Below, piece after piece: positions 33,271 through 49,183 of a stretch of 64,000 bases of DNA (within the stretch, counting starts at the first letter, position 1; each line of letters opens with the position of its first letter). This DNA is from Caenorhabditis remanei (Eukaryota > Nematoda > Chromadorea > Rhabditida > Rhabditidae): NCBI RefSeq assembly GCF_010183535.1, contig NC_071328.1, forward strand, positions 14,198,001 to 14,262,000. The letters are read 5' to 3'. The notes under the pieces are model-generated. The model was not told where the DNA came from. It saw nothing but the letters and a program-made list of their open reading frames with translations, and did not search any database. A program made the position numbers and the translations under genes.

Positions 33271-33274
33271 CTTC
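33271..33274. repeat. Target-site duplication (left) of the retroelement
   Basis: CTTC immediately before the 5' LTR, repeated at 49180-49183 after the 3' LTR. Confidence 0.8.
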
Positions 33275-33706
33275 TGTGAAAGGGTAGAACTCAGACTATG
33301 TCTGCCTTCTTCCTTTTCTCTAACCTCTCTTCTCTAGGCGTCTCAACACAAAGAGGAAGAGTCGGAGAAGACTGGCTCCGCCCCTTTTCACATGGAAGGG
33401 AGCGTCGCCTCTCTTCAGTTAGTCTAGCTGGATCCTAGCCCAAGCATGTCACCTAGCTTGGGGTGAGTCCCCGTCCTACTGTACCTCGGCAGGACTGGGT
33501 CTCACTAGGATCCTTAGGCCCCTATATATATTACTCACCCTTTATTCATTATACCTTATTACTCATTCATATTACTTGCTTATATAACCTCTACATAAAC
33601 CTATAATCATACACATATAATTAACCCTACTCCACTTTCAATAAGCCCGAGGAATCAGGTGAAGGTTGAGCAACCAGAAGGGGTTCTGGAGCGATCCCCC
33701 TTCACA
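33275..33706 (+). repeat. 5' LTR (432 bp)
   Basis: TG...CA ended. A TATA-like CCTATATATATTA at about 33520-33533 and AATAAG at about 33640 are candidate core promoter and poly(A) signals. Same sequence as 47159-47339 joined to 48929-49179. Confidence 0.9.
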
Positions 33707-33720
33707 TGGAGGTCCCACCA
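33707..33720 (+). promoter_or_regulatory. Candidate primer-binding site
   Basis: TGGAGGTCCCACC starts directly after the LTR, and TGG pairs with the CCA end of a tRNA. The tRNA is not identified. Confidence 0.5.
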
Positions 33721-36337
33721 ATCTTTTCTTTACTCTTCCTATCTGAAAGAGATACTAATATTCATACTATACTACTGTGAACTAATATTTTACTACACCA
33801 ACTGGAAACTCGTGTCGTTATCAGAGTTCAAATGGAAGTTCAAGTAGGTCTCATCGACTTTCTGAGAATGTGGTTGCAAACATATTCCAAGAAAGGTCCA
33901 TCAGCTATGGTGAGGCACAGGTATGCGAATTAGATGAGGACGATATCAATCGTCACAACTCCCTTTTAATCCTGAAACAGTGGCTTAGGAGTACATTCTG
34001 TAGCTCCAGTTTAAGATCAGGAAATATAGTTATTATGTGTGTATTTATTGGAAAATCATACTATATTGGGAAGGAAGTATATTGAAATACATTCTTTAAA
34101 AATCTCTCGTTAAAAATCTCTCATTAAATCTCTCTATTAAAATCTCTCTATTAAATCTCTCTATCAAAAATCTGTCATAAAATCTCGTTTCTTATACTAA
34201 CATAGTTAACTGGTCATTAGGTAATTTAAGAGTATTAGGAAGTAGATAAAATAAGCATTTTATCAAGATTGAGAAGTTCCTAACTAGTGACTAAAACAAC
34301 CCAACTTCCCACCCGAAATTCCAAAAATCTACCAAGAAAAGTCCAGTCAGAAAACAACATTGAGACCGTAACATTACGGTACAGGAGTGTATTGTTGGAG
34401 GGCTTAGTTCAAATCGGTTCAGAGACGATCGAACATAGCAATCTTTAACGTTAAAATTCACACCACGAGACTCGTCTAGATATAGTAAGAAGATAAGAAT
34501 CAGACGATTCCGGTTAAGCGTCATAAAACGAAATGAACTAACCAAGTCTCGGAGTTACTGTAATCTACTGAGTGCAGTCATTAAGAATGGAAAAATGACA
34601 TATATCTCAGGCTGAAAGTGAGGTCAATATATCCTTAACCAATTCCAGACCGTGACAAAAAGGGTCATAGAAATCTAGAATGTTAGAATTGTTAGACCGA
34701 AGAACAGTGCTATCATGCTAGATAAAAAGAAATAAAGTAAATTGTTATGGGAAAGTTAGAGATGCATTTCCGTCCTCGAAGTAATCGACATTTATAAAGC
34801 TATTGCTCACTGAAGTACCATAATACTCTCCTTGATAGCACCCGGAGACCTCTAGACAGGGATGACGGAAACATTAATTTGTAAAACCTGGAAGGAAATT
34901 ACTGCCTGGCTTGACTCAGACTCGCAGGAAAAGTATTTCGCTAGAGTGTTAGAAGGATCCGCATACCATGTAGTGATAACCTGTCACGGCCGTCAGGCTC
35001 ACTAACGTAACATGGATGTTTAAAAATTGAAGAATAATAAGAATAATATAAAATAGTTAATTTCTCCATGTTCTTTGAAGGGTCTGACCAAGAAAGGAAA
35101 TCCATGAATCCTAGGCAGACTATATGATTAGCAGAACCCATCTGCCCTTATTTTTTCGCCACAAGCGCGACAGCTACAGAGCTATATTATGATAAAACAG
35201 TTCGATTATAGATTCTAGATAGGAGTATGTTCTGTGAGAGTCAGAATCTACTAGGTTAGACACGCACGAAATAGCGTTGCGAACCCGGAGACATGTTGCT
35301 GACTAGAAGAAGAAGAAGGACTACGGTAGAAAGATCAGAAGTGCAGCCCGTGGGGTATAAATAATGCATCGTCACGAGCAAAAGCTACAGTAGGACGTCG
35401 AAACGACGCGAAACGAAATTAGGAGGAATTCAAGTGTAATTCCCCGGAGTGTGCAACATTTGTGAATAGAAGATGACGGGAAAAGGGGGGAAGCGAAAAG
35501 AAATAACAGGCGGGTCGGAGAGGCGTAGATTATAATTTACGATTGTCAGGCGATATACGAAAATTGTATACAATTGTATATGCGACAGCCGCTGGCATTT
35601 GGCATTCTGGCAGACAGCTGTCGTGGAATTGAGGAGCAATGAGACACTGGGGGGGCAAAGCCACTCAAGACCACCAGAGGAGGTCAGGCCACGCCCACGG
35701 ACTACGGTAGAAGGGGAAGGAGTATAAAAGGGGACCAGTCTACGGAAAACGGTCATTTCACCCACTCCTTTCTACAAAACCCTTACCACCTAAAATCCAT
35801 AAATTTTCCAGAAAACTTGGAGAATTAGTGACTGGTAACCCCACTCACGCCCAATCGCAGCATCTAGCTCAACAGCTCACGGCTAACGCAAACAACCGCC
35901 CAACTGCCCAGCCAACAACTACAACTACCAACGCAACCCGAGAAGCATCCAACTGAAGTTGAAGTTAGTTTCTTTTCCATTTTTTTTTGGGGCTAGTCAC
36001 AATTAGAATTAGTTTAGGAAAACTTCTCAATCCAAATCCAAAATCCAAAATCAAAAACATCAAAATCTCTCAATTCTCGTGAGCCCATTGCTCAACTCTC
36101 TCATTTACTCTCTCTCATCTCTCTCTCTCTCTCGCTTCATTACCTAGTTGGTCCATCAAAGTCGAAAACTTCATCTCTCTCTCTCTCATCATCATAAATT
36201 TATCGTGAAAATCCTACGTTCCGTTCGAAAGTTGTCAAATTTAGTCGTCTTTCTCACTCTATCTGCGTTATATAAAACCATCTACTGCGCCAAAGTAGCT
36301 CCAGCATTTTAAAGTTGATAACCACAGACGCACCTAG
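33707..36337 (+). other. Retroelement leader, no confirmed coding
   Basis: A 2.6 kb segment between PBS and Gag. It has a degenerate AAATCTCTCTATTAA tandem repeat (about 34098-34190, period about 15). At 35726-35733 GAGTATAAAAGGGGACC is a good TATA box, followed by an acceptor-like TTTTCCAG at about 35811 and a CT-rich tract at 36105-36190. This could be an internal promoter plus 5' UTR exon for the Gag-Env message. Short ORFs here have no recognisable domain. Confidence 0.45.
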
Positions 36338-39300
36338 GAGGCGTACAAAAATTCAAACCTGTGGAACAAAGACCCTGAAGAACGCGAACAAGTTAGGCAA
36401 CAGGCAAAAGTAGATAGGGAAGCTCGTGCAAAAAGACGAGAGGAACTTGCTGATATCCAACGAGACATCTCTCCTAATCCTCTCGCTGAAGAGTTAGCTA
36501 GGGAAGAAGAGAACCAGGCTACGTTCCAGCGCATCAGAAATACCATTAGGAGAGCAGCGGTCACAGTGAGAAGTTTAGGGAATAGTATCCGGCGGACGGA
36601 AAACAACCAAGACCCGAACCCGACCGAGAGCCCTGAAAACTTAGCATTAGTGCCATACTCGGTGCCCATAGCGGAACAAGTAAAGCTACTTCAAGACTTA
36701 CGCTTTAGAACTCTTCATCCCATCCAGACTCCAACAAGAGTTATTATCCCCGCGAATTCTCCTTTAGCCTCATCGTCACGGTCAGCACAGTTTTTCACAC
36801 CAAAAGGCTCTTTTTCATTAAGGAATAGGGGGCAGTCAGCACCAACGAGCACGACTACTGCGGCACCGAGTGTAGAAACAGTTCCAGTTACTGTAACTCA
36901 GCCACAGGCTCAAGGGAATAACCCTCTAGTAGATACTCCACGAACCACAGGGGTATACCGATTTATTCCGAAAGTCTTTCGTAAAAACTACTTCTTTAAG
37001 AGCAATAAACTCTCAAGGAATCCCACACCAAAGGGTACTGAAAATCATCTGTCTGCATCTAGTCAACCTTCAGTAGTAGTAGTACCACAAGGTCTTCAAG
37101 TAACCAAGACGGTGATTAAGGAAGAACCTAGGGAATCGGTACCAGAAATGGCTAAGAAAGAGTTATCGGAAGATCTGAAGTGGACGGATCTAGCCATACC
37201 GGCAGAAACAGACACTCAGAAAGCGCTTAGAGCGGTAGCAGGCCATGTTCCTAAGTTTAACGAAGGCAACACGGCTGCCTTGCGCAGATGGCTAGTTGAG
37301 TACCGTTGCGCGTTACATAACCTCAACATCAAACAAGAGGCCGGCGCAAAGATTATGCCATTTTTCCTTGAGGGGTTAGCGAAAAGTAGGTTCAACCAGT
37401 TACGTCAAGAGCAAACTAACACCTGGGACAAACTAGTTGAGAACCTAATCGCTTTTGAAGTCCCTGGGGATCGTGAACTTGCGCAACAAGAGATAACGAC
37501 CCTTAAACAAGGTCGGCTGTCAATTGCGGAGTACGCGCGAAAACTGAAGACGTTAGGTGAGTATGCCTATGAAGGCATGCCGGAGACCGTGCGGGATGGG
37601 CTGTTGGTGAACCATTTTATGCATCACGCAGCAAGCCACATCCGCAGGAGACTCCTCAGGATGGATAATCCGCCGAAAACGTTAGAGGAACTTATCCGCA
37701 GAGCGGAAAAGTTCCAAAGACTTCATGATCTGGAAGAATTAGAAAAGGATGATGAGCTAGTCGCAGCAATGACCCAGCTAATGCGCACTAGGGAAGATAG
37801 ACCGCAGGAGTCAAACTTCCGTCCTTTTTACCGCAATCCACCAGCGCCACCTCGTGAGGAAAATAGGGAATACCAGCAGGGTAGAAGGGATTGGAAATCA
37901 AATAAGCCGCGTTACCCTCCTAGAGGCAGAGGCGGTCCACCCCAAAACCCACCCAGAAGGTTCCCAGAGACAAGGCCTCCAGGTAGATTCCGTGAAGAAC
38001 GTCCACCAAGACCAGACAACCGTCAGGAAAGACCTCGAGAAGAGTCTTACCGTAACTCTCGAGGAGAAGGAAGCGCAGCGAAGCGTCTTCTCGCTTACTT
38101 GACGATAGCTATGACACTAGTAGTACCAGCACTGGCAGGCAAACCACAGATATGTGGATTCCAACAGGGAGGAAACATGTTCGTTCCACCTTCTATTCTT
38201 CCTTGTGAATCTCCGCGTACGTCCATTGTCTCTACCCGGGCGGATTTATTTGAACTCCGCACGGACCCAATGCGACAGATTGCGCACGCCTGTTATAAAC
38301 AAGTGTTCAAAGTGTCCACCTTTTCGATCTTTAGAATCTATTCCACCGCTCAAATGACTGATCGGGGATCGAGCACGTTCCAACAGGTTCGAACCCAAGA
38401 ATGTCGCGAAGCCGTTAGATCTAAACAGTATGCGGGTAAGGACATGACAGAAGGTCCTAAAGGAGTTTACCGCTCAGCTAGTCTTGGGGAAAATGCCGAA
38501 AATTATACGGCTTGGTTCGGAGGAAAAGAGGTCGAGCACGACGAATTCACAATAGTTGTAGGAGAGGTGGCATCTTTTGACGGTGAAGCTACCATTTCAA
38601 CGTTAGGAGATACCTCAAAATGCTCGTACCCTTCTGGAAGTTGCAAAACGGCTGAATCCACCATAGTATGGACGGAAAGTTCCCCATACAGAGCTTGCAA
38701 GTACCAGAAAATGACCTCGGTTGATGCGTTTATTACGGATAAGCATATAGCAGTTCCCGAACTTAAGATGTTCTCTACTATTTCTCAGGATATGCGATTT
38801 ACGCAGTTAGAGTCAAAAGGTTGTTTAGCGGGTAACGTATATTTTACGGATGACGGGAAGATGTTATCTTTCCCAGAATTACCCTCGGATCTCTGGATCC
38901 CGGACTATGTGCGGATGAAACAAGAGCATCACCGACAGAAACGGGTAGCCTATCTCAAATTGGGAGGTCCAAACAACACCACCATATCCATTAGCCTTGG
39001 AGAAAAGTTCGCGACTCCGCTAATCTACAAGTATTTTAAAGTAGATGCCCTAGAAAAGATACCCCAATTTGACACGGATCCCATTACGAATCCGGCTATC
39101 CTAGCTGATATCAAAGCGTTCGGAGTAACAAATGAGTTACTCAGGGATAGGGCAAAGAAATATGATCAAGAACGTAGAAACTCACTCGGTTCACAATTGA
39201 TTGTATTAAAGTGCATTCGAATTCGTCAATACTGGTATCGGGAATTCACGAGAATTCAAAAGCTATCTGGGGAAAGAACGGAGAAGGATGCAGAACTGCT

Positions 39301-40594
39301 AACTGCAATGGAAGAGGAGTTGGTAAACGTATTCGATGAACTCCTAGATTTGGAATTTGGGAAAAGTAAACGGAATCCAGGAAACTTTCCGGAAGGATAT
39401 CGAGTACCACGGGTTGACGAAAGCAAGGTACAGAGTATGGAACATATAGAACCATACATCGAGGCTCCATACCAACCACCACCACCTTCCACGTCAACCA
39501 CCACAACTACGACAACGACGACAACGACAACAACAACGATGAAACCAAGAACGGTACAACCAGCGACAACGACAAAAGTCACACCTACCACCACCTCGAC
39601 TCAAGCACCCACTACCACTAGGAAACCAGTTGTTATTCCACCCACCACCACTACAACTGAGAAACCAATTCCCTATTATGAGGACATAGTACCACCAGAA
39701 AACCGAAATGTGTATTTTGAAAAACCTCATAGTAATCCATTCCATAGTCCAGCCAAAGATATTTTCATGCAAACTTGCGCAAATCAACAGGAATCGACCA
39801 TTTTGTTTCTCACTCTATTAAATATCGATCCCACAGCAGCAATAAGACAGTTGTTCAAAAGAACGGACATCGCTGCTAGGAAAGCTGGCCAGGGTTTACT
39901 AATCTCACAATGTAGACCTGTAGAACCGGAGGAGGTTTATTGGAATAGGAGGATTAACGACACATGTTTTGATCTAGTCCCAATGTTGGTGGAAGGGAAA
40001 ATTTGGTTCTTATTAGAGGGTACTGACGATTTAGTAGCCGATTCAGGCTCAGTAGAGTGCAAGCGTCCTATGATCACTGGGAAAATTCACGTAGAAGGCG
40101 AAACTTGGAAAAACGAGCAAGGTACCGAAATGTGGGTACAAACACTCAATAGACCAATCCGTAGAACCGCCAGCCAATTCTTGTTCCAAGCGCCAGCAGT
40201 GATAGGAAATGATCTTCTCGGCCCAGGAACATCTTCAGCGGCCAACGAAGAATTAAATAAAATCTATCGTAGGAGGGTAAATAATATTACTTTCCGTCTG
40301 TTGGAGGAAAACATTGTTAAGGCAAAAGACTACATAACCACTAAAGTCAAAGTCCATAAGGACAAGGTAGCCAATACTTTAGATGAGTTATGGAATAGCA
40401 CCGGAAAGAAAGTATTTTCTGCGATCAAACATGTAATTTTCAATGTTTGGATGTTTATTTTAGTAATCATCGCTCCAGTGCTATTTATAGTCATTCTAGT
40501 GATAATCCTCTATGTATACTGCAAATTCCGATTGTCAAGAAGAGCTGCATCTGCAACAGCAAATAGGTTGATTGAGATGGCAACTAGACAGTAA
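36338..40594 (+). CDS. Gag-Env fusion polyprotein of the retroelement
   Basis: The frame is open from 36338, after TAG at 36335. It has no ATG until about 37148, so translation may start at a non-AUG codon (GTG at 36566 is the first commonly allowed one) or be supplied by splicing. Numbering from 36566: the matrix-like N-terminus is Pro/Thr/Ser-rich; about 217-410 is a Ty3-type capsid domain; about 418-507 is Arg/Pro/Gly-rich and probably nucleic-acid binding, with no CCHC knuckle. A signal-peptide-like hydrophobic segment at about 508-524 then starts an envelope glycoprotein with many cysteines and N-glycosylation sites. A furin-type RQKR lies at about 790-793, a Thr-rich mucin-like stalk with poly-Thr at about 972-1035, a transmembrane helix at about 1292-1318 and a short basic tail. 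Env normally follows pol, so its place here is odd. The glycoprotein family is not assigned. Viral entry is a family-level expectation, not shown. Confidence 0.85.
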   Translation, partial: EAYKNSNLWNKDPEEREQVRQQAKVDREARAKRREELADIQRDISPNPLAEELAREEENQATFQRIRNTIRRAAVTVRSLGNSIRRTENNQDPNPTESPENLALVPYSVPIAEQVKLLQDLRFRTLHPIQTPTRVIIPANSPLASSSRSAQFFTPKGSFSLRNRGQSAPTSTTTAAPSVETVPVTVTQPQAQGNNPLVDTPRTTGVYRFIPKVFRKNYFFKSNKLSRNPTPKGTENHLSASSQPSVVVVPQGLQVTKTVIKEEPRESVPEMAKKELSEDLKWTDLAIPAETDTQKALRAVAGHVPKFNEGNTAALRRWLVEYRCALHNLNIKQEAGAKIMPFFLEGLAKSRFNQLRQEQTNTWDKLVENLIAFEVPGDRELAQQEITTLKQGRLSIAEYARKLKTLGEYAYEGMPETVRDGLLVNHFMHHAASHIRRRLLRMDNPPKTLEELIRRAEKFQRLHDLEELEKDDELVAAMTQLMRTREDRPQESNFRPFYRNPPAPPREENREYQQGRRDWKSNKPRYPPRGRGGPPQNPPRRFPETRPPGRFREERPPRPDNRQERPREESYRNSRGEGSAAKRLLAYLTIAMTLVVPALAGKPQICGFQQGGNMFVPPSILPCESPRTSIVSTRADLFELRTDPMRQIAHACYKQVFKVSTFSIFRIYSTAQMTDRGSSTFQQVRTQECREAVRSKQYAGKDMTEGPKGVYRSASLGENAENYTAWFGGKEVEHDEFTIVVGEVASFDGEATISTLGDTSKCSYPSGSCKTAESTIVWTESSPYRACKYQKMTSVDAFITDKHIAVPELKMFSTISQDMRFTQLESKGCLAGNVYFTDDGKMLSFPELPSDLWIPDYVRMKQEHHRQKRVAYLKLGGPNNTTISISLGEKFATPLIYKYFKVDALEKIPQFDTDPITNPAILADIKAFGVTNELLRDRAKKYDQERRNSLGSQLIVLKCIRIRQYWYREFTRIQKLSGERTEKDAELLTAMEEELVNVFDELLDLEFGKSKRNPGNFPEGYRVPRVDESKVQSMEHIEPYIEAPYQPPPPSTSTTTTTTTTTTTTTTMKPRTVQPATTTKVTPTTTSTQAPTTTRKPVVIPPTTTTTEKPIPYYEDIVPPENRNVYFEKPHSNPFHSPAKDIFMQTCANQQESTILFLTLLNIDPTAAIRQLFKRTDIAARKAGQGLLISQCRPVEPEEVYWNRRINDTCFDLVPMLVEGKIWFLLEGTDDLVADSGSVECKRPMITGKIHVEGETWKNEQGTEMWVQTLNRPIRRTASQFLFQAPAVIGNDLLGPGTSSAANEELNKIYRRRVNNITFRLLEENIVKAKDYITTKVKVHKDKVANTLDELWNSTGKKVFSAIKHVIFNVWMFILVIIAPVLFIVILVIILYVYCKFRLSRRAASATANRLIEMATRQ

Positions 40595-40639
40595 AGAGGA
40601 ATTAATCATGTAGATTACGACGGGGGTCAGCGCGTCTAT
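40592..40639 (+). promoter_or_regulatory. Single in-frame UAA between Gag-Env and Pol
   Basis: CAG TAA AGA closes the first ORF, and the following 15 codons up to the pol ATG at 40640 are open in the same frame. Stop readthrough could give a Gag-Env-Pol fusion. Reinitiation, or splicing of a separate pol message, are the alternatives. Confidence 0.5.
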
Positions 40640-43600
40640 ATGGCAGCTGACATCAATGATGAATACCCCATCCCAGGAGTTTACTCCGTTCTTCATCGTA
40701 GAAATAGAGGACACTTGCCAGTGATAAAGATAGAGATGAACGGGAAAATAGTTCATGCATTACTGGATACGGGAGCAGGTATCAGCTATCTTCCTGTTTC
40801 CCAGATTAGGCCAGAAGACTTGGATGTAGGAAAAGAACAACAGGCCCGAGCGGCTAATGGTTCAGTTATCAGATTCCTAGGAACAACATCGCAGAGCATA
40901 AAGATAGGAGAAATCGAGGTAGACCAAACTCTTTTGGTATCCCATGATGAGGACTGTCCTTCAGAAATTCTTCTTGGAGTAGATTTCATTCGGAACATGA
41001 ATAAATTAGGACATCCGGTGTCATTCGACATGTTAAAGAAGGAAGTTCAGATCGGAACAGAAATTTCTCTAGTCTGCAATGTTGAGTTAGCTCCTGAAAG
41101 GGAAGAGATTAAAGTAGCGGTTAGTCATAATTGCACGGTTAATCCAACCTCGGAGGCAATTATTCCAGTTAAATTAGTGAACTATAGGAAGGAGTTCGGT
41201 ACGGAGTTCATGATTTCGGATAATAAAAAGGAATCGGAACAAATCTACGCTATTGCCAGATCAGTTGTGTCAACAGATCAGGAAGGGAAAACTTTCTTAC
41301 AACTAGTTAACCCATCCGCGACCCCAATCAAATTATTTGCGGGGCAGGCACTAGCCACGGCAACGATCTACGAACAGATTTGGGAAGACAGCTATACGCC
41401 ACCAGAGGCAGACTGGACAGCTAAACTCCCGCTCATGCCGAAACCGACACCTCTGGACTACAAACCGTCTAACGAAATCGATCTTAAAGATTCAATCTTT
41501 ACCGAAGAGCAGAGAAGTAGACTTAGGAACATAATAGATAGGCACCCGAAGGCATTTGTAGGTCCAGATGGCGTCTTAGGATGTTACAATGGAACGATAC
41601 GACATCGGATAGATTTTGTCAAAGATGCGAAAATGCCAGCGCCTAGAAATTATAGAGTTCCACTTGAGAGGAGACATGAAGTAGAAAAACAAGTTAGGGA
41701 AATGGAATCTCAAGGGATAATTCGACCGTCATCGTCACCTTTTTCGGCTCCTATTGTAATGGTTCGGAAAGCAGATGGAGAATCTTGGAGATTCTGTATT
41801 GATTTTCGCCAAATTAATAACATCACCGAACCAGTCCAATCCATCCTTCCTAACCTCCAAGAACTTCTAGATGTAACGGCTGAAAACGCAATTTATACCA
41901 CTTTAGATTTTGCGTCGGGGTTTCATCAGATTCCGTTGGAGGAAGAGCATTGCGAGAGAACAGCGTTTGCGTCATTTATGGGCGTATACGAATACGTCCG
42001 CATGCCGATGGGATTGAAGGGAAGCCCAGGGACATTTCAAAGAATCATGCATAAGCTAATTAAACCTTTGAGAGCTAGAGTCTTTTGTTATATTGATGAC
42101 ATCATCACCACTTCACCAACTCCAGAACAGCATTTGGAGGATATTGAGGAAATTCTTACTATGGTTGAAGAATCGGGAATGAAATTAAAACCCAGTAAGG
42201 CTAAATTTGGACAAGATAAGATTAAATTCTTAGGGTTTATTGTCTCAGCGGAAGGTATCCATCCGGATCCTGAAAAGACAGTAGCAATCACGAACTACCC
42301 AAAACCCAAGAATGTAACGGAAGTTAGGGCATTCCTAGGCTTAGCATCCTTTTATCGACGATTCATCAAAAACTTCTCCAAAATCACCACACCACTCACG
42401 GAGCTGACAAAGAAAGACTCCGAGTTTCTTTGGGGAGTCGAACAGGAGAAAGCCTTTGAACAACTGAAATTGGCTTTGGTATCCAGTCCAGTTTTAGCTG
42501 CACCTAAGTTGGGGTTTCCATTTGTTATTGAAACAGATGCGTCTGGAAAAGGCGTTGGAGCAGTACTCATGCAAGCCCGAGATCGGGAAAGTACTGATTT
42601 TCGAGTCATAGCATATGCATCTCGTGTTTACAACAAACACGAGAAACGCTATCCAGCTATTGAATTAGAAGCCTTAGGTCTCATCTTCGCGGTAACTAAG
42701 TTTCGTCCGTATATAGATGGTGCAGAAACCACCATCATCACTGACCATTCTCCCTTAAAGGCGTTACTTTATCGCACTGATCTTCAAGGTAGACTCGCTA
42801 AATACCAAATTATTCTCCAAGAATATAACGTCACGATTGTCTACAAACCGGGGAAAACAAATGTTGTGGCAGATGCATTGTCGCGGCATCATCCTCTTAT
42901 CAATGCAGTAATTCCTCTATGGGTTGATCTGAAAACCATTAAAGCAGAACAACAGGCAGCACCGGAACTTGAGAAAATCAGGGACATGTTCGGAAATTTC
43001 GAAAACCGAGATGGAGTGATCTACAAAAATAACGTAGAAGGCATCCCTGTGGTTTGCTTGCCAAAGAACACCCAGTATGGTCAAACTCTGGCTGAAATGG
43101 TACACGGATCGTTAGAAGAAGGTGCTCATCTTGGAAGAGATAAGACCCTCCATAGAATTAAGGAAATTGCGGTTTGGCCCGGTCTAGAAGCGACAGTTAG
43201 GAAGATTGTGGCAGCTTGCGAAATTTGTCAACAAACTAAAGATTCTACAAAAACCCGCACTCAAGCAGTTCTTCATGAGTTAGAAGAAATATCACAGCCT
43301 TTTGAGAGAGTACATTGTGATTTCATCGGTCCATTAGCAGAAACAGAACGTGGAAACAAATATATTCTAGTCTTTACGTGTGCATTTTCAAAATTCGTCA
43401 TAGCAGAGCCAACGGAAAACCAATCGTCGATGTCGACTATTAGAACGATTGCGGATAGGCTATTTGCGAGATTCGGAATACCGAAAGTTTTGGTCTCCGA
43501 CAGAGGAACGAATTTCTTGTCAAAAACTACGCAGCTTTTCTTGCAGTCCAAGAATTGCGAACATCGGACTAGCACACCGTATCATCACTCAGCTAACGGG

Positions 43601-44206
43601 CAGGTCGAGCGAGCTAACCAAACTATTGAGGGGTTATTGCGTCCCCACACTGCTGACGGCTGCTGGGATGTCTATTTGCAAAAAGTTGTCCACGCCTATA
43701 ACACTTCTATTCACGCCACGACACGTAGAACACCTTTTGAAATCGTCCACACATTCAAACCAGGTTCACCGGTAAAGAATGCGTTAAATCGAAAAGGCGG
43801 AGAAGTTATTTCTGAAAAATGTTTAGACGACCCTCGAAAGGAGGAGGAAAAACAACCGGATAAGCACGCAGAAGTCTTAGAGTATGAAGCGTACAAAAGA
43901 GAAATACTTAAAAAGGCTCATGAGAGAGTAAAAGATATTCTAGCGGAAAGGACCGCCGAGAGAAATAGAAAATTCAACCAGAAGCCTACGATAAACGATG
44001 TAAAATTTGAAATTGGCGAGAAAATCCTATTAAGAAAGGGAAAATCGGATAAATTGAGCCCACCCTTTATCGGACCATTCGAAATTACTGGAATCCGAGA
44101 ACCTAACTTGATTATAAAAGGCTTCGGAAGAGCTACGAGAAGCGGCGAAGCCAAGGAATCTGTGGTTCACAAAAATAGGTGTAAACTTTTCATTGAGAAA
44201 TCGTAA
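40640..44206 (+). CDS. pol: Pol polyprotein: protease, reverse transcriptase, RNase H, integrase
   Basis: 1188 residues from ATG 40640. Aspartic protease has DTGAG at 43-47 and ILLGVDF at 110-116. Reverse transcriptase spans about 330-600, with the catalytic Asp in TLDFASG (D423) and a YIDD box at 484-487. RNase H is about 625-750, with candidate catalytic D633, E677, D702 and D745. Integrase has an HHCC finger (H822, H830, C860, C863) and catalytic D894, D954, E990 with 35 residues between the last two, the classical DD35E. A GPF/Y-like module (PPFIGPFEIT) lies at 1141-1150. All key residues are present and there is no frameshift, so the enzyme set looks functional. The PR-RT-RH-IN order assigns the element to Ty3/gypsy (Metaviridae). 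It copies the RNA genome and integrates the DNA. Expression relative to Gag-Env is discussed at the preceding stop. Confidence 0.95.
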   Translation: MAADINDEYPIPGVYSVLHRRNRGHLPVIKIEMNGKIVHALLDTGAGISYLPVSQIRPEDLDVGKEQQARAANGSVIRFLGTTSQSIKIGEIEVDQTLLVSHDEDCPSEILLGVDFIRNMNKLGHPVSFDMLKKEVQIGTEISLVCNVELAPEREEIKVAVSHNCTVNPTSEAIIPVKLVNYRKEFGTEFMISDNKKESEQIYAIARSVVSTDQEGKTFLQLVNPSATPIKLFAGQALATATIYEQIWEDSYTPPEADWTAKLPLMPKPTPLDYKPSNEIDLKDSIFTEEQRSRLRNIIDRHPKAFVGPDGVLGCYNGTIRHRIDFVKDAKMPAPRNYRVPLERRHEVEKQVREMESQGIIRPSSSPFSAPIVMVRKADGESWRFCIDFRQINNITEPVQSILPNLQELLDVTAENAIYTTLDFASGFHQIPLEEEHCERTAFASFMGVYEYVRMPMGLKGSPGTFQRIMHKLIKPLRARVFCYIDDIITTSPTPEQHLEDIEEILTMVEESGMKLKPSKAKFGQDKIKFLGFIVSAEGIHPDPEKTVAITNYPKPKNVTEVRAFLGLASFYRRFIKNFSKITTPLTELTKKDSEFLWGVEQEKAFEQLKLALVSSPVLAAPKLGFPFVIETDASGKGVGAVLMQARDRESTDFRVIAYASRVYNKHEKRYPAIELEALGLIFAVTKFRPYIDGAETTIITDHSPLKALLYRTDLQGRLAKYQIILQEYNVTIVYKPGKTNVVADALSRHHPLINAVIPLWVDLKTIKAEQQAAPELEKIRDMFGNFENRDGVIYKNNVEGIPVVCLPKNTQYGQTLAEMVHGSLEEGAHLGRDKTLHRIKEIAVWPGLEATVRKIVAACEICQQTKDSTKTRTQAVLHELEEISQPFERVHCDFIGPLAETERGNKYILVFTCAFSKFVIAEPTENQSSMSTIRTIADRLFARFGIPKVLVSDRGTNFLSKTTQLFLQSKNCEHRTSTPYHHSANGQVERANQTIEGLLRPHTADGCWDVYLQKVVHAYNTSIHATTRRTPFEIVHTFKPGSPVKNALNRKGGEVISEKCLDDPRKEEEKQPDKHAEVLEYEAYKREILKKAHERVKDILAERTAERNRKFNQKPTINDVKFEIGEKILLRKGKSDKLSPPFIGPFEITGIREPNLIIKGFGRATRSGEAKESVVHKNRCKLFIEKS

Positions 44207-44503
44207 CGGCTGAGAGAATCGGAAACTTCCAACTTACTACGAATTGTTTTGTTAATTCCTGAAATATACTTATATATATATTCGTAATATACTCTTATCA
44301 CTTTTAAAGTGATGCATTTATAGGAATCTTACCGAAAATACCTAATAAACCGTAATGTAAAAATACGTGTTAAAGACCAATGTTAGTTCAAGAAAATAAG
44401 AAACGAGAGACAGTAAATATGGGAAAAGAAGGCGAAAACATTCAGAGATAGGCATTCGGGGTTCCACAAGCCAGATAGTTAACTAAACTAGTTCATTTTT
44501 AAG
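44207..44503 (+). other. Spacer between pol and the accessory ORF
   Basis: AT-rich, with ATATACTTATATATATATTCG at about 44262-44285. No ORF or clear acceptor directly before 44504. Confidence 0.4.
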
Positions 44504-45289
44504 ATGCCGATCGCAAAACACCTTCATCCGGAAACCCCTCAGGAAAACGTAACCCGTTTTAATGCCGTGGTATTGATACAACACCACGGATACACTTTGA
44601 TGTATTCAAAGAAGTTCGGGAAACAGCTTGTGACTATGGAGGAGTCTGCAGGTCCCCAACAGCCGGGGTCGGTCTTCCACATAATAGTTTTTGAGAAAAA
44701 CTATACTCCTGGAAAGCACCACCTCAACAATGCCAATTGTACGGGGTGGAACATTGAGTTGGCGCCAGAACAGTCAAGAATCGAGGCAAAGTACCTGCCT
44801 AGCCTCGAGGCTCCCGGCCATGGTGAAGTAGTTCTACGAATCCTTTATTCCGACCCATGGATGGTCACAGGACGGATAGGGGATTTCAAAAATGAGATCA
44901 TCCCATTTGAGGTGATCTCAATGGACCAATGGCTCCTTCAGGAGAAGGACGCAGGAGGAATGGTAGCCATTGAAGTACAGGTGGCACTCGACGGGCTTCT
45001 CATGATTGGCGGAAGCCGATTGGACCGCCGGATCCGAGATCCAGTTTCGAAGGCCCAACAGGAACGAGGAGAGATCATCGGGCGGACTGAAATAAAATAC
45101 ATAGAACAAACAGGATTGGATAGGATTCTAATGTCAACGCATCCGTTCTTGTTCAATTACGAAGAGAACAAGGAAGAAACCAAAGCAAAAGAAGAACCAT
45201 CGGGAGAAGGAAACGACGACGAGGAGAATGATATCGACTCGATCGCCGATGAATTCGAATTCATCGAAACCGAAGACACCGAGGAGTAA
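44504..45289 (+). CDS. Accessory acidic protein of the retroelement (261 aa), unknown
   Basis: I do not recognise a domain. ATG at 44504 follows a 297-base gap after pol. The first about 200 residues look globular and soluble, with mixed hydrophobic/charged text, one N-glycosylation-like NCT, and no signal peptide or membrane segment. The last about 45 residues are strongly acidic (runs of E/D, ending EFEFIETEDTEE). Codon composition matches pol, and the ORF is intact between a young pair of LTRs, arguing that it is maintained by the element. Possible roles are inference only: a regulatory or host-interaction factor, or a chaperone for the basic Gag tail or the basic ORF at 46532. It does not resemble the Gag, Pol or Env parts. 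Confidence 0.75.
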   Translation: MPIAKHLHPETPQENVTRFNAVVLIQHHGYTLMYSKKFGKQLVTMEESAGPQQPGSVFHIIVFEKNYTPGKHHLNNANCTGWNIELAPEQSRIEAKYLPSLEAPGHGEVVLRILYSDPWMVTGRIGDFKNEIIPFEVISMDQWLLQEKDAGGMVAIEVQVALDGLLMIGGSRLDRRIRDPVSKAQQERGEIIGRTEIKYIEQTGLDRILMSTHPFLFNYEENKEETKAKEEPSGEGNDDEENDIDSIADEFEFIETEDTEE

Positions 45290-45829
45290 ACACCACCGAT
45301 CTTTCTCTCCGACCAATCCACACTTACTTATTTCCTCCGTTCTATTCATAAGATTGCTAAGAAAGGAGAAAAGCCTACAATATTTCGAGGAAAATATATA
45401 TACGAATCAGTTTTGGGAAAAAAAAAGGCTTTTCTCGGAACTTTCCCTATTTTAATCCCAAAGTTGTCGCAAATCAATGATATTTAATCAATTAGAAAGG
45501 AATAAATATTGGCCGAGAAGTTTCGCAATGAGTCTTGAGAGTAAAAGAGAGTTGAGAGTATAGAGAGTCGGGTTATATCTGGAAATCCCTGAAAGAGTTA
45601 TTGAAATAATTACGGGATGAATTCCCCGTTATAACGTTAACGATAAATCAATACAAAAACGTAAACGGATTTATTCAATGAGATCTTTTACATGACGGAA
45701 ACCCGTATAACAAAAATGACAACAAGAACAGAAGAATCAGATAAAACAATGAGAACACAAGATTTTTCGGGAATCTAAACAAAACCCATGGGAAAACTTT
45801 TGGAAAGAAAACAAGAAAACGATCGATTT
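45290..45829 (+). other. Non-coding retroelement segment
   Basis: AT-rich with no long ORF. It ends at the 3' border of the antisense EGF gene fragment. Confidence 0.4.
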
Positions 45830-46238
45830 TTAGACCAAGTTCTCCAAATACTCCTTGATTTTCTTCGGTGCGGTCTTCGCTTTGCTCGAAATCTCATCCA
45901 GCCCGCCGATTCGGTCTCCATTTTTCGAACGGAAGTACCAGACAATGGCCCCACAGCAACCGAGAAGGGAGAAGAGAACGAGCAGCGATACGAGAAGAAT
46001 GGACCCTAAAAGAAACGGGAATGAAAGGTGAAATGGAATATGCCAACTTACAGAAGTCACTGGCGTCTTCGGAGGCGGCGACGACGGCGGATGTGGTCTT
46101 CTCGACAACAATTTCACACATTTTACCGGCGAATCCTTCGCGACATTGGCACTCTGGGCCAGTCGGCGAGGCGTAACAGCCGCCTCTCCCAGAACACGAT
46201 CCGGGACACATCGCTGACATCATTCTTTGCATTCTGTT
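45830..46238 (-). pseudogene. Captured host gene fragment: EGF domain plus membrane segment, antisense in retroelement
   Basis: Two exons on the minus strand: 46238-46052 and 46005-45830, with a 46-base intron 46051-46006 (GTAAGTTGG ... TTTCTTTTAG). The first exon is preceded by TCGATTTTTTCAG, a third splice signal. The encoded C-terminal part has a six-cysteine EGF module (CPGSC ... GGC ... ECQC ... KMC), a linker, then a hydrophobic helix (LLVSLLVLFSLLGCCGAIV) and a basic cytoplasmic tail of about 47 residues ending EYLENLV and TAA. This is the 3' end of a type I membrane protein gene. Upstream exons are missing, because retroelement sequence replaces them beyond about 46520, so it is listed as a partial gene even though the surviving exons are undamaged. 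The parent gene is not recognised. Because introns survive and the orientation is opposite to the element, it was probably picked up through an element transcript that read the gene backwards. Confidence 0.75.
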
Positions 46239-46531
46239 CTGAAAAAATCGATAAGTTTACGAGGAAAACGGAAAGTTTATCGGAAATTGAAGGAAAAAAC
46301 CGAGGAAAAAACGAGCGAAAACTCGATAAAAAACTAATAAAAATAGAATTAAAAACAATTCTAAAATTCAAATCGACGTTAGCGCAATGGAGCGCATTTG
46401 CACCTCATTTCGTCAAAATTAGCGCGGAAATTCAAATTCGGTTTTTGGCGAAAGAAAATTTCGAGAAAACGGGAAAACGAATAGAATCGAGAAATTCCCG
46501 AGGAAATTATAATTTTTTTTTCTTTCTGCAG

Positions 46532-46979
46532 AAACTTCGATCGATCACGAGTGACCTTCCGGAAGAGGACTGGGAAGTGGCCAATTCGACAACGCAGCCC
46601 TATTCGACGACGAAGCCCAATTCGCCGAAGCAGTCCACAACGCCAAAGAAGCCCGATCAGGAACCGAGCTCAACCAAATCGGATCACGAAGCCATGGCGC
46701 GGGAATAAGCACACGGAAGGGAGACAGTGGAAGAAAAACGGAAACGGACAACGCCCGGGATTCGGACGAGGAAAACAACAAGGGAGCTGGAGAGCTGGGA
46801 ATGGAGAACCGATGCCTCGACAGCCGGGATACCCAATGATGGTAATGAACCCTACCCCCTTCCCCAGCACAAATCCATCGTTTATTGCTCCTCCCCACCC
46901 AATCCAGTATATTTCTCATCCACCAATGCCTCATTATTTCCCACACCCCACCCCACCGCAGCAGCAATATCATTACTAA
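46532..46979 (+). CDS. Basic RS/RG-rich ORF at the 3' end of the retroelement
   Basis: Starts at a strong acceptor (TTTCTTTCTGCAG, AG at 46530-46531), so it looks like a 3' exon without its own ATG. In this frame about 149 residues are encoded: a basic part with repeated RSPIRR-type units, an RPGFGRGKQQG-type RG segment, then a Pro/Met/His-rich tail ending QQQYHY and a stop. The composition suits RNA or nucleocapsid binding, which could matter because Gag lacks a zinc knuckle; this is inference. A second frame over 46532-46708 is also open (ends SDHEAMARE), so which frame is used is uncertain. No upstream donor was identified. Confidence 0.45.
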
Positions 46980-47145
46980 ATTACATTTAATCATGAATTG
47001 TATGCTATGTTTTATATTTCCCCCACAACCCAGACCTTCTTTTGTATTTCAAGATACCCACCCAATATAACCAACTTTAAGGCCTAAGGTAATTTCTTTT
47101 AGTAATTACGTCTTCTCCTCTTAGTGTCCGGGACGGCCACATTTT

Positions 47146-47158
47146 AAACCGGGGGGGA
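47146..47158 (+). promoter_or_regulatory. Polypurine tract
   Basis: AAACCGGGGGGGA directly before the 3' LTR, the expected plus-strand primer position. Confidence 0.6.
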
Positions 47159-49179
47159 TGTGAAAGGGTAGAACTCAGACTATGTCTGCCTTCTTCCTTT
47201 TCTCTAACCTCTCTTCTCTAGGCGTCTCAACACAAAGAGGAAGAGTCGGAGAAGACTGGCTCCGCCCCTTTTCACATGGAAGGGAGCGTCGCCTCTCTTC
47301 AGTTAGTCTAGCTGGATCCTAGCCCAAGCATGTCACCTACAGTACCGCTCAAAAGTATATTAACTTTTTGTTTTTTGATCATAACTTATCTCAAATAGGT
47401 CCGATTGAGCTGAAACTTTGGGAAAACATTTATTGTAGAGTTTTTAATATATTTACACAAAATTTGGGTAAAAAATAATGTTCCAAAAGTTTTTTGCACA
47501 ATTTTCGAAAATCTCAAAAATGCGAAAAAATGGCATATTTTTGTTTAAATGATCAGTGTATCGAACACAGGTTGTAGAAACAGTGTTTATGATAGTTTTC
47601 CGTAAGACATAGTCTAGTTCTTCAATTTTTGAGTACTGGTCCGCAATCTTAGGCATGCTTTCCATGTATCCCATTCCGACAAAGTATGGTAATTGAGACA
47701 TTTGGAGTTTTGAAGTTCGAACTACTGTAAAATAGTTTATTTTCGTAGAAAACAGTAGCGGTTTACCCGAAACTATTCAAAAAACGATAAAGAACAATTT
47801 AAAAATAACCCGATCCTGATACAAGCTTTCAATCAGTTTTTGGAGACGTTCAAACGTCAACTAGAGGTTCTCCGGAATGACAATCTGACACGTTCCGGAT
47901 CGAAATTTCATAATTATCTGGAACCCTTGTCATCAAAACTTCAGACAATTATTATTTCAGTATTTGTCAATATTCTGAACCATATACTGAAGCACAAATT
48001 TGTAATTGAGAGCTGTGCCATTCTCTGCAAATTAGTAAATGGCATTTCAAAAAACTCAAAATTTTTTAATTCTTTTTTTTCTCAAGAATTAGTGTCTAGC
48101 TGATTATTTTTTAGTTTTCTACATCAGAAAAAGACTTCAATAGATTTCTAACAATTAAAAACCTATTGACTCACGTTTTATTATATTTTCATATTGTAGG
48201 CAAAAACTGCAGTTAGAACGTGGATACTGCGTAGTTACTTTTTAGTGTGCACATACTTTCAAACAAATTTGTGCTTCAGTATATGGTTCAGAATATTGAC
48301 AAATACTGAAATAATAATTGTCTGAAGTTTTGATGACAAGGGTTCCAGATAATTATGAAATTTCGATCCGGAACGTGTCAGATTGTCATTCCGGAGAACC
48401 TCTAGTTGACGTTTGAACGTCTCCAAAAACTGATTGAAAGCTTGTATCAGGATCGGGTTATTTTTAAATTGTTCTTTATCGTTTTTTGAACAGTTTCGGG
48501 TAAACCGCTACTGTTTTCTACGAAAATAAACTATTTTACAGTAGTTCGAACTTCAAAACTCCAAATGTCTCAATTACCATACTTTGTCGGAATGGGATAC
48601 ATGGAAAGCATGCCTAAGATTGCGGACCAGTACTCAAAAATTGAAGAACTAGACTATGTCTTACGGAAAACTATCATAAACACTGTTTCTACAACCTGTG
48701 TTCGATACACTGATCATTTAAACAAAAATATGCCATTTTTTCGCATTTTTGAGATTTTCGAAAATTGTGCAAAAAACGTTTGGAACATTATTTTTTACCC
48801 AAATTTTGTGTAAATATATTAAAAACTCTACAATAAATGTTTTCCCAAAGTTTCAGCTCAATCGGACCTATTTGAGATAAGTTATGATCAAAAAACAAAA
48901 AGTTAATATACTTTTGAGCGGTACTGTAGCTTGGGGTGAGTCCCCGTCCTACTGTACCTCGGCAGGACTGGGTCTCACTAGGATCCTTAGGCCCCTATAT
49001 ATATTACTCACCCTTTATTCATTATACCTTATTACTCATTCATATTACTTGCTTATATAACCTCTACATAAACCTATAATCATACACATATAATTAACCC
49101 TACTCCACTTTCAATAAGCCCGAGGAATCAGGTGAAGGTTGAGCAACCAGAAGGGGTTCTGGAGCGATCCCCCTTCACA
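47159..49179 (+). repeat. 3' LTR, split by a foldback element
   Basis: LTR bases 47159-47339 and 48929-49179 (plus one TA) join to a sequence I cannot distinguish from the 5' LTR. The break is at CACC-TA-GCTTGG. Confidence 0.9.
47340..48926. mobile_element. 1.59 kb foldback DNA transposon in the 3' LTR
   Basis: TA at 47338-47339 and 48927-48928 flank termini CAGTACCGCTC and GAGCGGTACTG. Arms 47340-48002 and 48264-48926 are 663 bp each and almost identical. The loop is about 261 bp. Each arm carries the same 82-codon open frame (minus strand 47701-47453; plus strand 48565-48813) differing at one residue seen; no transposase is recognisable. TA duplication points to Tc1/mariner-type mobilisation. 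The shape recalls Tc4, but Tc4 uses a TNA target, so this is a different family. Confidence 0.9.
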
Positions 49180-49183
49180 CTTC

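Follow-up and report, generated by a model that had tools for sequence, protein, structure and literature searches.

The 64,000-nucleotide stretch of Caenorhabditis remanei contig NC_071328.1 analysed here (positions 14,198,001 to 14,262,000, hereafter called the window) harbours a Ty3/gypsy long terminal repeat (LTR) element at 33275-49179, in which a region coding for an envelope glycoprotein (Env) lies between gag and pol. Coordinates are those of the window, and features are on the forward strand unless otherwise stated. Comparison of the two LTRs, relatives of which were collected by DNA search, showed that both are 432 bp long and mutually identical (5' LTR, 33275..33706; 3' LTR, 47159..49179, in two pieces described below), suggesting a young copy and a recent insertion. 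The element starts with TGTGAA, ends with TTCACA and is flanked on both sides by a 4-bp CTTC target-site duplication (33271..33274 and 49180-49183). Such TG..CA ends and a short target duplication are those of Metaviridae. So is the composition of Pol (40595..44206), in which Pfam domains of the Ty3/gypsy kind follow one another in the order protease (PR, 40724-40996), reverse transcriptase (RT, 41765-42244), RNase H (RH, 42518-42826) and integrase core (IN, 43295-43585).

Upstream of pol, a stop-to-stop frame of 1418 aa (36338-40594) carries Gag and then Env, with its first ATG at 37148. The Gag part (36338..38080) matches the Pfam signatures Retrotrans_gag (E = 3.6e-11, 37349-37585) and Ty3_capsid (E = 0.0044) but gave no Pfam match to zf-CCHC, and it has an Arg-rich tail. 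The Env region (38081..40591, 837 codons), recognized from Pfam, profiles and selection, begins with an internal signal-peptide-like stretch with a small-x-small end (38081..38137) and contains an RQKR furin-type site (38933..38944), a Thr-rich stalk (39488..39661, Thr at 32 of 58 residues), a PF24664-matching stretch with a match to glycoprotein B (gB) inside it (39710..40066), and a C-terminal membrane helix followed by a short tail (40454..40510, mean Kyte-Doolittle hydropathy 3.65). Signal peptides, here and in the relatives, were judged by eye from their small-x-small ends rather than with a signal-peptide program. A first-pass annotation of the same DNA had described a Ty3-type capsid with an Arg-rich tail running in frame into an envelope with a signal peptide, an RQKR site, a Thr-rich stalk and a C-terminal membrane helix, all of which we located in this frame. 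The segment 36338-37147 is open but devoid of ATG codons and is retained in close copies, and a related stretch is found on the opposite strand in two related loci (L011 and L012); its codons may be part of an upstream exon.

Pol is in the same frame as Gag-Env, separated from it by one TAA codon (40592..40594). The first-pass annotation had pol following env, which is correct, and to this can be added both the shared frame and the stop in the window copy. This stop is missing from all nine close relatives whose junction was read, and therefore open copies exist. The gag-env junction is also found in three public C. remanei proteins (P0001, P0002 and P0004, the first two of which start at the same ATG, 37148), and the env-pol junction in P0003 and P0004. 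The nearest named proteins are from C. remanei, with 89-90% identity, and the protein searches (two of them among the best 7993 candidates scored) returned matches from this species only.

Related loci in the genome were collected through an LTR DNA search, which yields copies and relatives, and a search with PF24664, which gave at least 40 places. We examined 25 of 40 PF24664 places, leaving out 15, and added L003, L011 and L012 from the LTR search, for a set of 28 env-bearing loci including the window; three other LTR neighbours (L005, L010 and L013) gave no env match. Because L001/L002, L006/L007 and L011/L012 are near-duplicates, locus counts do not represent independent events, and the profiles used to establish the layouts were partly built from the loci on which they were run. 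Gag was found upstream of env in 25 of the 28 loci, the exceptions being L011, L012 and L015, where env was recovered only in its 3' part. In L014, L017 and L022, which lack a gag Pfam match, gag was recognized with a home-made profile, with an additional tblastn match in L017. PR is located downstream of env in 26 loci, all except L003, which ends with its contig, and L027, whereas the profiles detected neither PR nor RT upstream of env in any of the 28. This is neither the errantivirus/retrovirus layout, with env 3' of pol, nor the Gag-Pol-Env order of Belpaoviridae with Env (Atlas, Tas, Cer7). The reading frame is mostly continuous as well: Gag and Env share one open reading frame (ORF) in 23 of 25 loci (not in L018 or L026), and Env and PR do so in 24 of 26 (not in the window or L018). 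A single open frame runs from gag to the end of RT in L014, L016, L017 and L046, and open frames of 2622 aa (C4:2725300) and 2426 aa (C4:4105812) were identified. In L008, L015, L019 and L022, the frame is broken inside PR, after an open Env-PR junction. The placement of the envelope between gag and pol, as first annotated, is thus shared by divergent relatives, and since distant relatives in the same genome have the same order, Gag-Env-Pol is a layout that has evolved rather than an accident.

Variations on this layout were also observed. L004, L006, L007 and L009 have lost Pol residues from about 395 to 1098, corresponding to most of the RT to IN region, but have kept gag-env-PR open over 1632-1633 codons (1547 in L009). 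These copies seem to be non-autonomous, and Gag, Env and protease could still be produced from them. Large pol deletions are also found in L008, L011 and L012. One distant env-bearing locus, L026, has a zf-CCHC match. In L017, L022 and L023, there are two protease-like profile matches 3' of env, the second before RT.

The identity of Env emerged from profile comparisons. Alone, the window Env matches PF24664 (Monjiviricetes_fusion) with E = 2.2e-06 and 26.4 bits, 0.6 bits under the 27-bit cut-off, and PF00606 (gB) with E = 9e-04 and 19.2 bits, under the 43-bit cut-off. We aligned it with seven other env sequences of the same genome, 19-34% identical to it. Both signatures match all eight members of this alignment, in which 12 Cys residues are invariant. 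A search of the PDB with its profile (E up to 1) returned 55 sequences, 54 of which are herpesvirus gB (best E = 5.5e-07), including entries named BALF4, GP110 and ORF8, which we take to be gB; the remaining one is a MYB protein. The match with gB spans a helix and extends into the beginning of the following segment (...I.PT...R...AKR.G....VSQC). A profile was needed, since the PDB search with the single Env sequence was uninformative, yielding only six weak unrelated matches; scans of viral contigs with the window env and with the alignment gave no confirmed match. An R-x-K/R-R motif is found mid-protein in 12 of 13 loci (L028 lacks it), and furin-type sites, glycosylation sequons and cysteines are preserved in divergent env lineages. 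By its profile homology to gB, Env is very probably a class III fusogen, and the region is an envelope-type protein, as had first been proposed, rather than a capsid. The class III assignment is based on profiles across about 80-120 residues, and the structure predictions were unusable (mean predicted local distance difference test scores of 34.2 and 30.9) because the underlying alignments are shallow, with 3 and 5 sequences; both points weigh against it.

Env is under strong purifying selection. The ratio of nonsynonymous to synonymous substitution rates (dN/dS) of env between the window and L001 is 0.09, and it is 0.08-0.09 relative to L004, L006, L007 and L009 and 0.05 relative to L008 (dS 1.2). 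These values come from six of the seven copies compared with the window, dS being saturated relative to L045. In the same six comparisons, the gag values (0.08-0.19) are above those of env every time. Inside the non-autonomous group, env dN/dS is 0.23-0.33, from few changes, and selection on env may be relaxed there.

To place the element among its relatives, we built an unrooted RT tree; L040 and L041, two of a set of 14 RT stretches, gave no match to the window RT and were left out. Nine env-bearing rows are separated from ten Cer1-like rows by one branch (100/100), which places the window RT outside the Cer1-like clade; L016 is a long branch. L042 was counted as env-bearing on account of its near-identity to L039 and of a weak PF24664 match (E = 0.05) in its vicinity, rather than from a reading of its env. 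The label 'Cer1-like' was given on the basis of the tree and of two regions read upstream, with no named Cer1 sequence included. In these two regions, L043 and L044 (upstream of L035 and L029, respectively), the translation shows a gag with CCHC fingers that continues into PR, with no env between them; the places of the other eight Cer1-like rows, whose upstream regions were not read, are absent from the PF24664 search. The simplest reading of these sequences is that env was gained or moved once, between the env-bearing lineage and the Cer1-like elements. Insertion at the 3' end of gag and a move, the two origins first proposed, are not told apart, because the tree is unrooted and no env-less element was found on the env-bearing RT side.

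We consider it likely that this Metaviridae lineage expresses Gag, a gB-like class III Env and Pol as one polyprotein. The three would be translated as a single chain threaded across the endoplasmic reticulum membrane: Gag would remain cytosolic, the internal signal peptide would direct the Env ectodomain to the lumen, where signal peptidase and a furin-type protease would cleave, and the C-terminal helix would return the chain, leaving PR-RT-RH-IN in the cytosol. The retroviral protease would then release Gag and Pol. With one signal peptide leading in and one helix leading out, Gag and Pol are both cytosolic, and a single chain is therefore topologically consistent. The window copy, with its Env-Pol stop, would give a Gag-Env product and little or no Pol. 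We infer single-chain translation, this topology, the cleavages, particle release and membrane fusion from sequence. Flavivirus-type polyproteins have the order capsid-glycoprotein-replicase, and the proposed chain is closer to them than to retroviral expression.

Splice sites, scored with a simple consensus relative to the mean of mononucleotide shuffles, are not conserved around env, and a polyprotein with an internal signal peptide is therefore a somewhat better fit than a spliced env message. Several observations nevertheless weigh against it. In 6 of 13 loci, the donor score before env exceeds the shuffled mean by 0.3-0.7, and an identical donor-like sequence, AGGTAGATT, precedes env in the window, L001 and L045. 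The acceptor before env in L028 scores 8.4 versus 6.9 for the shuffles, with a slight excess in L045, L017 and L021, and acceptors before PR are above the shuffles in L006, L009 and L016. By hydropathy, only the signal peptide of L017, among four divergent loci, is above the 1.9 cut-off. It would also be unusual for Gag, Env and Pol to be made in equimolar amounts. In Cer1, the C-terminal part of CERV is in the polyprotein frame, yet it is produced from a spliced mRNA (PMC10309623). Finally, the table of an electron microscopy survey gives 0.0 germline particles for two C. remanei strains, the same survey reporting spiked 80-nm germline particles in C. japonica (PMC3315495). The donor scores and the 0.0 entry led us to lower our confidence in the polyprotein slightly.

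Among other explanations, the env domain might no longer function in infection but help to keep germline particles on membranes, as a membrane anchor or a protein of the cell surface, which is compatible with polyprotein expression. Its place inside the polyprotein would mean one Env per Gag, and env is retained in copies without RT-IN, as this role would have it. We nonetheless find it rather unlikely, given that strong purifying selection and the maintenance of furin-type sites, sequons and cysteines fit a working fusogen. We also judge it unlikely that Env is made in the retrovirus manner from its own spliced mRNA, the shared frame being a by-product as for CERV. Next to the Cer1 precedent, the points in its favour are a strong donor-like site, AGGTGAGTA, in gag at 37556, the L028 acceptor, which is located 256 nt 5' of the signal peptide, and an in-frame ATG one codon (L016) or five codons (L022) before the signal peptide. 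However, no acceptor is common to the lineages, since in 11 of 12 loci the best one within 300 nt 5' of the signal peptide scores below the shuffled mean or at most 0.3 from it, and the last in-frame ATG is at least 38 codons 5' of the signal peptide in 10 of 12. Much less probable is that env is an alternative intron, with unspliced RNA giving Gag-Env and env excision giving Gag-Pol: the donor scores noted above and a TTTTCAG close to the env 3' end in L006 and L009 would suit it, but in 7 of 13 loci the donor score falls short of the shuffled mean, just three of 13 have an acceptor more than 0.1 above that mean, a donor and an acceptor above it never coincide in one locus, and the frames across both junctions are mostly kept open. 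An assembly artefact or chance join of two elements, which had been named as a possible refutation, has nothing in its favour and is rejected given the identical LTRs, the target-site duplication and the recurrence of the same junctions in public proteins and divergent elements.

Returning to the element itself, a candidate primer-binding site starting with TGG directly follows the 5' LTR (33707..33724), and a polypurine run, GGGGGGGA, lies 5' of the 3' LTR (47151..47158). The latter LTR is split into 47159-47339 and 48929-49179 by a nested TA-flanked element (47337-48929) with perfect 667-bp inverted arms, whose TA (47338-47339) is repeated at 48927-48928. Downstream of pol, ORF3 (44504..45289, 261 aa) has no Pfam match. 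Its relatives, at 29-30% identity, are located 3' of pol at C4:4108550 and C40:101205, others being elsewhere, and ORF3 may be the counterpart of the Cer1 CERV region.

Further downstream, a two-exon gene is predicted on the reverse strand (46232-45830). Exon 1 (46052..46232), with TTTTTTCAG immediately 5' of its ATG, codes for a six-Cys epidermal growth factor (EGF)-like domain; it is followed by a 46-nt phase-1 intron (GTAAGT...TTTTAG, 46006..46051) and by exon 2 (45830..46005), which codes for a membrane helix and a short tail and ends with the stop. A search with the EGF stretch (E up to 0.001) yielded 14 other places, 13 of which, all but C1:12395514, could be placed by position antisense to an identified element gene. 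Seven of the eight loci read share the layout, namely an acceptor-like sequence before the ATG, six Cys, a 44-50 nt phase-1 intron and a membrane helix, a count to be read without a chance control and with the exon 2 helix as a selection rule of the scan; in the eighth, L053, the gene is disrupted. These genes fall into three groups (window/L047, L048 and L049-L053). In five pairs, exon 1 has dN/dS values of 0.09-0.41 and exon 2 values of 0.19-0.52. Speaking against a purely coding signal, the intron is conserved too: the window and L047 show 0 differences over its 46 nt, in contrast with the strong divergence of exon 2 in this pair, a pattern suggestive of recombination. The antisense orientation would retain the intron in genomic RNA, and as to the role of the protein, attachment or host signalling are our guesses.

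Altogether, we are inclined to see here a distinct class of Ty3/gypsy elements in Caenorhabditis, with a membrane-threaded Gag-Env-Pol polyprotein and a gB-like class III envelope, to which some lineages would add an antisense, intron-containing EGF-like membrane protein that may partner Env in attachment or host signalling; the donor scores and the electron microscopy entry temper this view too. To our knowledge, known layouts have Env at the 3' end of the retroelement, and in many of them it is expressed from a separate message. Neither a gB-like env nor an env within a polyprotein is new alone, since nematode BEL/Pao elements offer published precedents, namely the Atlas polyprotein and the herpesvirus-like env reported for Tas or Cer-7. 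What is new, as far as we searched, is the order Gag-Env-Pol, its distribution over a radiation of Ty3/gypsy elements, and the antisense EGF gene: no account of the order or of the antisense gene was found in the literature covered, which included few subscription papers. Varied elements keep env between Gag and Pol, in most cases in frame, and it is under strong selection. If our interpretation is true, they represent a different way to make Gag, Env and Pol from one RNA, with a fusogen of class III within Ty3/gypsy, and a testable system in a laboratory nematode for the transition from retrotransposon to retrovirus. The antisense gene with its intron is a second, separate puzzle.

Among known systems, errantiviruses and retroviruses are, like the window element, LTR elements whose Env has a furin-type site and a membrane anchor. 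In errantiviruses, unlike in the window element, env is 3' of pol. Simple retroviruses also encode Env 3' of pol and produce it from a spliced mRNA (PMC10309623). Cer1 of C. elegans shares with the window element a Ty3/gypsy pol and a further ORF 3' of it, and its gag and pol are in one frame without a stop, another likeness to the window lineage (PMC10309623). The Cer1-like elements of the same genome have RTs 38-41% identical to that of the window, but L043 and L044 differ from the window element in lacking env and in having a CCHC gag joined to PR. The mosquito element Anakin has captured a glycoprotein from chuviruses, a virus group of the kind for which PF24664 is named, a likeness by description; it differs in belonging to BEL/Pao and in being from insects (PMC7642597). 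Tas of Ascaris is reported to carry an env with weak similarity to herpesvirus gB (PMC9094657), a likeness again by description rather than by sequence, although a herpesvirus-like env is assigned to Cer-7 in another paper (PMC7642597), in disagreement with the former; Tas differs in being a BEL/Pao element with env reportedly downstream of its polyprotein (PMC7642597). Atlas virus of hookworm, also from a nematode, has its env within a single retroelement polyprotein of 2828 residues, but it is a BEL/Pao element with the order Gag-Pol-Env and a class II, phlebovirus-like Gc (PMC9094657).

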